Positions 15,805-16,676 of a stretch of DNA of 43,635 nucleotides are shown one piece after another. Source of the DNA: Bacteroidales bacterium (GTDB lineage: Bacteria; Bacteroidota; Bacteroidia; Bacteroidales; UBA932); assembly GCA_017934185.1 (NCBI GenBank), contig JAGBJY010000026.1:1-43635 (forward strand), written 5' to 3'. Position numbers and translations under genes: made by a program. A model generated the notes under the pieces. The model worked only from the letters and a program-made list of their open reading frames with translations, made no database searches and had not been told where the DNA came from. Every line of letters begins with the position of its first letter. The first letter of the stretch is position 1.

Positions 15805-16676
15805 TGCCCACACTAAAGGAAATAAAAGGCCGCATAGCCTCGGTCAAGAGCACGCTGAAGATTACTTCGGCCATGAAGCTGGTGTCTTCTGCCAAGCTCC
15901 GCAAGGCGCAGGCGGCCATCGAGAACATGCGCCCTTATGAGCAGCAACTGCAGCGGATGCTTGCTTCCGCGTCTGTAGAGGCATACGCCCCCGTCATGCC
16001 CGACCCTGATCGGGCATCTCCCGCTCCGCGCGTCATTCTCGCCATCGCCAGCAACTCTTCCCTTTGCGGCGGCTTCAACGCCAATGCCATCTCACGGGTA
16101 CGCAAAACCCGCAGGAGCGGAGACATCGTCTATTCCATCGGCCGGAAAATGGCCGATGCCATGCGCAAGGACGGTTTCCCTTCGCCGGAGGATTACACTG
16201 CCCTGAGCGAGCATCCGGCCTATGCCCCCTGCGCCCAGCTGGTAGAGCGGCTCAGTGAGGACTTTGCCGCGGGCCGCATCGGCGAAGTGCTGCTGGTGTA
16301 CAATCATTTTGTGTCTACCGCCCGTCAGGAACCCGTGGTGGAGCGCCTGCTTCCATCCGGGGAGGCTGCGCCCGCCGGCGCTAAAATAAGCGCCGATGCG
16401 CCGGCGGGCGCAGCCTCCCCGTCCGATGCCATCATCGAGCCATCGCCCTCAGAGCTCCTGGCCATCCTTCTGCCCAAGACCTTGAAACTCAAGCTCTATG
16501 CGGCCCTGCTGGACAGCGCCGCCGCCGAGCATGCCGCCCGTACCGTTGCCATGCAGGCCGCTACCGACAACGGCAACCAGCTCCTGGAAGAACTCACCCT
16601 CCAGTACAACAAGGGCCGTCAGCAAAAAATCACCAACGAAATCCTGGACCTTGCCGCCGGCAGTGCCGCAAAGTAA
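15804..16676 (+). CDS. atpG: ATP synthase F1 subunit gamma, with two in-frame palindromic insertions
   Basis: The 290-residue rotor-shaft protein begins [38 protein letters not shown] and ends with the conserved helix EHAARTVAMQAATDNGNQLLEELTLQYNKGRQ-type sequence. Between the coiled-coil ends lies the Rossmann-like domain (SNSSLCGGFNANAIS). Two extra segments are encoded by palindromic DNA: VMPDPDRAS at residues 64-72 (15993-16018) and GEAAPAGAKISADAPAG onward at residues 186-208 (16358-16421). Both fall where gamma sequences vary in length, so they are probably surface loops and the protein should be functional. It is the last gene of the operon. Confidence 0.95.
   Translation: MPTLKEIKGRIASVKSTLKITSAMKLVSSAKLRKAQAAIENMRPYEQQLQRMLASASVEAYAPVMPDPDRASPAPRVILAIASNSSLCGGFNANAISRVRKTRRSGDIVYSIGRKMADAMRKDGFPSPEDYTALSEHPAYAPCAQLVERLSEDFAAGRIGEVLLVYNHFVSTARQEPVVERLLPSGEAAPAGAKISADAPAGAASPSDAIIEPSPSELLAILLPKTLKLKLYAALLDSAAAEHAARTVAMQAATDNGNQLLEELTLQYNKGRQQKITNEILDLAAGSAAK
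15993..16018 (+). repeat. 26-nt palindromic unit inside atpG (site 1)
   Basis: The layout is GTC, ATGCCCGA, six-base loop, TCGGGCAT, C. The 8-bp stem is perfect. It starts on codon 64 and encodes VMPDPDRAS. Units of the same 26-nt footprint lie at 11924, 36438 and (minus strand) 21690-21665. Confidence 0.92.
16358..16421 (+). repeat. 64-nt palindromic element inside atpG (site 2)
   Basis: The arm starts CGGGGAGGCTGCGCCCGC and runs 16358-16381; its exact complement is 16398-16421, a 24-bp perfect stem. The 16-nt loop begins TAAAATAA and contains GCGCCGAT. In frame it encodes APAGAK-IS-ADAPAG. The DUF2723 gene carries APAYAK-KQ-ADAPAG from a similar core with different outer arms. Confidence 0.93.

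Follow-up and report, generated by a model that had tools for sequence, protein, structure and literature searches.

A palindromic repeat family fitting the CGTC-tagged REP superfamily, with most of its copies apparently inside genes, in a probable Cryptobacteroides genome

REPs are usually regarded as extragenic. The closest described systems to the repeat studied here are families CGTC-1 to CGTC-4 of the CGTC-tagged REP superfamily (Di Nocera et al. 2013, PMC3733652). In the parts of that survey consulted, Bacteroidetes are among the hosts of the superfamily, which includes the Neisseria dRS3 repeats and the Rickettsia elements RPE-4 and RPE-6; RPE-4 is placed in CGTC-4, and both RPE-6 and dRS3 in CGTC-1. 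How these repeats move is a question left by the same survey. The original prediction for the DNA analysed here likened a hairpin within its genes to Rickettsia palindromic elements, with dRS3 as a looser parallel, and knew of no described protein-embedded equivalent in Bacteroidales. The likeness holds, but as dRS3, RPE-4 and RPE-6 all belong to one superfamily with Bacteroidetes among its hosts, this kind of repeat has already been described; among the literature matches listed for protein-embedded palindromes in Bacteroidales, PMC3733652 alone was directly relevant, going by the portions consulted.

Two other systems were compared from passages of their reports. The RAYT-associated REP, BIME and REPIN sequences (GTAG; PMC6006769) are likewise short palindromes found in inverted pairs, with presumed non-autonomous mobility, but the foot of the present repeat is (C/T)GTC, not GTAG, and the Y1 genes here are flanked by other palindromes. 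The Coxiella QMITE elements (PMC5896051) are also mobile repeats that sometimes add in-frame segments to proteins; they are, however, MITEs with terminal inverted repeats and longer units, whereas the units here are hairpins of 25-26 nt.

The DNA analysed (the window, 43,635 nt) belongs to a 2.13-Mb draft genome of 62 contigs, 85.8% complete with 4.8% contamination, whose host genus is probably Cryptobacteroides. Five copies of a GTCAT hairpin had been proposed in the window, and on recheck all five coordinates and sequences were correct; the ORFs confirmed that the four genic copies singled out in the prediction start on a codon boundary. A 26-nt unit lies in atpG (15804..16676, plus strand) at 15993..16018 on the plus strand, read in frame +0 as VMPDPDRAS. 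The DUF2723/TMEM260-like gene (PF11028; 36012..39239, plus strand) carries another at 36438..36463, also on the plus strand and in frame +0 (VMADADRPS). In the MATE family gene on the minus strand (ORF 20416..22098, the real start of which is probably about 45 codons inside), a 26-nt unit at 21665..21690 on the minus strand is read in frame +0 as VMPGSDRAS. The proposed inverted fifth copy, 25 nt long, was correctly placed at 21697..21721 on the plus strand, and we can add that it is the tail-to-tail partner of this 26-mer, separated from it by a 6-nt spacer and translated in frame as MADPVGHD.

The copy in atpB (11780..12877, plus strand) at 11924..11949 on the plus strand, encoding VILSDSEES, had been taken for the same element. 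Only its outer five pairs fit the scheme, and the copy, GTCATTCTGAGCGATAGCGAAGAATC, is a unit of a second, separate GTCAT repeat (GTCATTCTGAGCG..GCGAAGAATC) with 31 matches in the genome against none for the reversed pattern. It is adjoined by a third repeat (LSSASLRDPVRANAPER; 11828..11923, plus strand), whose peptide has similar counterparts in PolA and four other places of the same genome. This peptide repeat was also seen in AtpB of three relatives (L153, L163 and L175; L-numbers denote loci of relatives; of those bearing AtpG the best 80 of 113 were retained). The region after the AtpB signal peptide gathers different repeats by species.

The unit of the 25/26-nt family reads GTCAT-arm-loop-arm-ATC and consists of (C/T)GTC, an 8-bp stem, a loop (C..GA) and then C. 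Using a covariance model built from 32 distinct units, and counting matches at E<=1, we found at least 90 copies in the genome, 89 of them with E below 0.1; the number is a lower bound because only 150 of 2453 first-look candidates were scored. The lengths were 25 nt (47 copies), 26 nt (40), 24 nt (two) and 23 nt (one). A stringent pattern gave 46 genome matches, and one leaving three stem pairs free with the other stem bases fixed gave 69; neither had any match when reversed. A genome-wide count above chance had been set beforehand as a test of the prediction, and this count refutes the reading that the copies are ordinary fast-evolving linker sequence, alike by chance. The sites are indeed variable linkers across the genus, but identical units in unrelated genes and in intergenic DNA, the covariation described next and the dimer-length gains of the MATE loop leave that explanation with next to no probability.

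Among the 32 model units 98.8% of stem cells were paired, and changes on both sides affected 38 cells, where shuffling gave a mean of 11.2. Two of the five measures of covariation did not exceed the shuffles (4 both-side-changed pairs against 3.2, and 8 further pair types against 8.7). As these rows had been picked by a script demanding at least 7 of 8 stem pairs, covariation was retested at the positions left free in the pattern, which inform on three pairs only. There 66, 68 and 66 of the 69 copies were paired, where shuffling gave 31, 38 and 40 on average, and the 44 distinct strings of the set gave 41, 43 and 42; the compensated stem changes of the original prediction were thereby confirmed. 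Rfam gave no match within the window at gathering scores, one form of the unit (GTCATGCCCGGCNCCGACCGGGCATC) had none in viral contigs, and the MATE dimer had none among plasmids.

The family fits the CGTC-tagged REP superfamily in its foot motif, the length of its stem and the first stem pairs, judged from sequence features as given in the consulted parts of PMC3733652. CGTC-1 to CGTC-4 share with it the CGTC or TGTC end and an 8-bp stem opening with AT pairs, as well as the occurrence of dispersed dimers and single units, intragenic copies including some in repair genes, and the lack of an adjoining transposase, judged here for Y1_Tnp. In the foot, the base before GTC is C in 17 and T in 9 of 30 units. 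The published stems are 8-9 bp with A-T pairs in the first two positions; here the stem is 8 bp, its first pair A-T in all 32 distinct units and its second T-A in 29. The loop, published as 4-5 nt, has 5 nt in the 25-mers, as in the described families, but 6 nt in the 26-mers, and against the tail consensus CCA the present tail is C, then T in 26 of 30 and C in 18 of 30 units. The described families differ in that most copies here are intragenic and the host is the probable Bacteroidales genus Cryptobacteroides. Rickettsia RPE-4 and RPE-6, as that survey describes them, likewise lie in frame inside genes as short palindromes but differ in sequence and host, and dRS3 forms large clusters whereas the present units are mostly single or paired, over half of them in genes.

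To locate the copies we used a simple codon model trained on 29 ORFs of the window, with ad hoc cut-offs. By this model 53 of the 90 units have coding sequence on either side, 10 are ambiguous, and the other 27 are intergenic or lie at an edge. The frames of the host genes are open; of these 42 ORFs 40 were scanned against Pfam (AtpG and one 141-aa ORF were excluded), and one had no family. Within the Pfam-matched span fell 45 of 62 units, in 29 of the 40 scanned ORFs; the other 17 include those in MATE and the TMEM260-like gene, where the best stretch alone was counted, and certain N-terminal units may be located before the true start codon. Among the replication and repair hosts are DNA polymerase A, which holds three units, UvrD helicase, a MutL-type protein and an HhH-GPD plus NUDIX protein. 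Units lie between the two domains of a superoxide dismutase (one unit) and of an FAD synthetase plus flavokinase, an alpha-2-macroglobulin protein holds two dimers, and a transglycosylase/transpeptidase two units. Further Pfam-matched hosts included GcpE, LpxK, a methyltransferase (PF02390), a class I tRNA synthetase, glycerate kinase, altronate dehydratase, a two-cassette ABC protein, GH3, GH20, GH43, MMPL, MatE and the TMEM260-like protein. Beyond the Pfam labels, we take hosts in this set to be TrmB, PBP1C, ABC-F, MutY, IspG and RibF. Replication and repair genes were prominent in the 2013 survey of CGTC repeats too, in the parts consulted (PMC3733652).

It had been proposed that the hairpin enters genes in one tolerated frame. 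A bias exists, but it is not a rule, as several frames are used: the 26-mers scored inside genes are read as +0 (17 of 27), +2 (7), -0 (2) and -1 (1), and the 25-mers as -2 (14), +0 (6), +1 (3) and -1 (3). Stops close phase -2 for 26-mers, and +2 and -0 for most 25-mers, as read from the sequences. Relative to equal use of the open phases, and treating copies as independent, the bias is strong for 26-mers (p 2e-7) and weaker for 25-mers (p 0.006). Single 26-mers retain it (+0 10, +2 5, -0 1), and single 25-mers are nearly without it (+0 4, -2 3, +1 2, -1 2). The preference of 26-mers for +0 is what one would look for if selection acted on the peptide, with VMPGPDRAS or MADQVGHD as a useful motif and the DNA palindrome as a by-product. 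Against this, other frames and the reverse strand are in use, 27 of 90 copies lie outside genes or at an edge, and the stem covaries at positions that alter the peptide; we regard selection on the peptide as very improbable.

The copies are often paired. In this genome all 21 pairs closer than 120 nt are tail-to-tail, with their CGTC ends facing each other, and 18 of them combine one 25-mer with one 26-mer. Published CGTC dimers are mostly head-to-head, a tendency and not a definition according to the consulted text (PMC3733652). In two relatives, for which 150 of 249 matches were listed, at least 14 pairs are tail-to-tail, 9 tandem and 2 head-to-head. In one of these genomes (G019:C26:50917-53371) the unit was seen in tandem runs, three of them 38 nt apart, and tandem units with a similar 50-nt spacing occur at G014:C13:34-159.

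As 25+26 gives 51 nt, a dimer plus its spacer is often a multiple of three and then yields a stop-free polar peptide, MADQVGHD-n-VMPGPDRAS. Total pair length was divisible by three in 15 of the 21 own-genome pairs (p 4e-4) and, for tail-to-tail pairs of three species, in 24 of 35 against 11.7 expected (p 2e-5, copies treated as independent and 150 of the relatives' 249 matches listed); one G019 pair is a probable assembly duplicate, and without it the count is 23 of 34. We tentatively speculate that the 25+26 tail-to-tail dimer is a frame-neutral mobile peptide cassette, an element shaped for intragenic life by selection on surviving insertions, and that bouts of such palindromes remodel the linkers of core proteins (AtpB, AtpG, PolA, MutL, UvrD, MATE) genus-wide, although we think it rather improbable. 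Descent from one ancestor whose spacer was 6 nt would account for the excess too. In the own genome the divisible share is 8 of 12 for pairs with both units scored as coding and 7 of 9 for the remaining pairs, so these data do not separate a unit shaped in itself from selection on copies once inserted.

Comparison with relatives, the nearest of which among the sampled genomes shares 72% AtpG identity and those of which in named records are rumen and gut Bacteroidales assemblies, showed the palindrome in frame inside genes and absent from orthologues for MATE, AtpG and PolA. MATE was located in 28 loci, and its loop was readable in 26 genomes including the window (L163 and L176 were unreadable, and L155 duplicates L153, both being one genome). 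The loop is empty, at 7 residues, in 9 of the 26. Over this empty state the window gains 57 nt, exactly 25+6+26, and L158 gains 78 nt, exactly 25+27+26; L177 and L179 each hold a single 25-mer, and 13 genomes carry other sequence. Where relatives lack the DNA repeat at the sites checked, their peptides are different; identical peptides without the repeat, which the original prediction had named as a refutation, did not occur. A quick MATE tree from which the linker was omitted puts L158 together with L153, L156 and L159, all three empty, in a starred group (support 95, within a group at 97); the repeat label requires four changes, at least two of them forced by starred branches, with gain and loss indistinguishable.

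In AtpG, where the linker ahead of the LCGGFN motif varies in length across the genus, the unit is found in the linker of the window, L153 and L160, and further along the gene in L153, L158, L167, L168, L172, L173 and L193. AtpB of L161, L168 and L173 also carries it. PolA was matched in 60 of 61 genus genomes and compared at 30 loci, several rows being without a visible linker; in the rows with one, the own-genome units are not common to the relatives at that place, L284 and L287 carry single units elsewhere, and L279, L280 and L285 carry other repeats. The linkers of AtpB, AtpG, MATE and PolA collect several repeats. New in this study are this gathering, the mostly intragenic copies and the tail-to-tail heterodimers.

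The AtpG linkers bear on whether the hairpin is instead retained at these places for a role in RNA, for instance as a control element in the atp operon messenger, so that position and not mobility would matter. The 64 of 80 sequences that yielded a linker had a folding-energy z below -2 in 22 cases against 1 of 64 control stretches, and many of these relatives have strong but unrelated hairpins; the mean z was -3.47 for linkers longer than 35 residues (n=26) and -0.65 for the others (n=38). The linkers bearing the 25/26-nt family, however, fall short of -2 (window -1.13, L153 -1.97, L160 -1.31), the unit is missing at corresponding sites of relatives, and the same unit occurs in some forty unrelated genes and in intergenic DNA, in several frames and both orientations. 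A second linker hairpin type (CACnAAA..GCCGATT..GTG) was tried as a dispersed repeat and dropped, as the own genome and eight relatives had between 0 and 3 matches apiece; its rarity in its own genomes, a point in favour of RNA function, means that not every AtpG-linker hairpin is a dispersed repeat, and counts against a simple mobile-copy story for those linkers. For the 25/26-nt family we consider retention for RNA function unlikely.

Several other hairpins were seen along the way. The AtpG linkers of L161, L208, L179, L181 and L157 have very strong hairpins of unrelated sequence (z -5.7 to -11). A scan of 80 loci and the window found 237 strong hairpins against 119 in codon-shuffled sequence, mostly terminator-like in appearance. 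The window has three copies (3189-3221, 21181-21213 and 41658-41690) of one terminator-like palindrome, AAAAACAGTAAG..CTTACTGTTTTT, which recurs just downstream of a Y1 transposase-like gene on contig C39. A palindrome pair of the GCAAAAGGTCGG type at 7722-7832 of the window has counterparts on contig C22, immediately upstream of a second Y1 gene, and resembles a classical RAYT-linked repeat family. L152:15548-16144 holds three copies of the palindrome GTGTGCTTCAACTCTTGAAGCACAC and one of a shorter form, unevenly spaced some 100-250 bases apart.

The family was present in 60 of 101 genus genomes including the own one, with 1 to 77 matches each at 77 candidates scored per genome; two rescored genomes gave 123 and 126. 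An order-wide sample of 295 genomes, which included one other genome of the genus, had matches only in the own genome and in G250 (two matches), at 26 candidates scored per genome. The own genome has three Y1_Tnp matches, and mobilisation of the copies by its RAYT-type Y1 transposases, as in classical REP systems, was considered. Of the genus genomes, 78 have a Y1 match and 57 of these carry the repeat, compared with 3 of the 23 that lack a match (Fisher p 3e-7); a match is also present in 25 of the 27 genomes in which 20 or more copies were counted (p 0.02). Neither figure is corrected for ancestry or completeness; among the 30 genomes compared at PolA, a match is absent from just two. Yet at the 13 Y1_Tnp loci examined no 25/26-nt unit lies directly beside the gene, the nearest in the own genome being about 1.9 kb away, the own three Y1 genes adjoin other palindromes (the window also has two of these families), and two genomes without a match carry 34 and 24 copies, at 74% and 70% completeness. 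A trans-acting Y1 enzyme is a possible mobiliser, but mobilisation in the classical RAYT manner seems doubtful to us.

The original prediction of a mobile or amplified hairpin that enters genes in frame is supported, at the level of sequence comparison, by the census, by the covariation at free positions, by orthologous sites that are empty and by two MATE inserts whose net length is exactly that of the two units with their spacer. The net gain of the MATE loop equals the dimer length, and units are in frame in some forty ORFs with orthologous sites empty. We therefore consider it highly probable that the repeat is a CGTC-type REP family which has been amplified and dispersed in this species, and to varying degrees in others of the genus, by copying in trans, followed by selection against gene-breaking copies. 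In this view the hairpin would be the substrate of a trans-acting enzyme, perhaps a nuclease of the single-strand (HUH/Y1-like) kind, that places copies of units or dimers at new sites, and insertion may be nearly blind to genes. Gene-breaking copies would be lost, so that survivors would be those in linkers and loops, in frame, encoding short polar peptides such as MADQVGHD or VMPGPDRAS; no benefit to the host protein would be needed. Copying in trans and filtering by selection are what we infer from copies that are dispersed, in frame and absent in relatives.

An amplified REP family with most copies in genes, several of them of core function, contrasts with the extragenic view of REPs. The host genus is a largely uncultured one of gut and rumen with many sequenced species, and its range of copy number from 0 to more than 120 offers contrasts for asking how CGTC repeats move. 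The family is also a warning that odd linkers in core proteins can be repeat DNA, and it raises the question of whether core proteins of bacteria regularly acquire new loops from small mobile palindromes.
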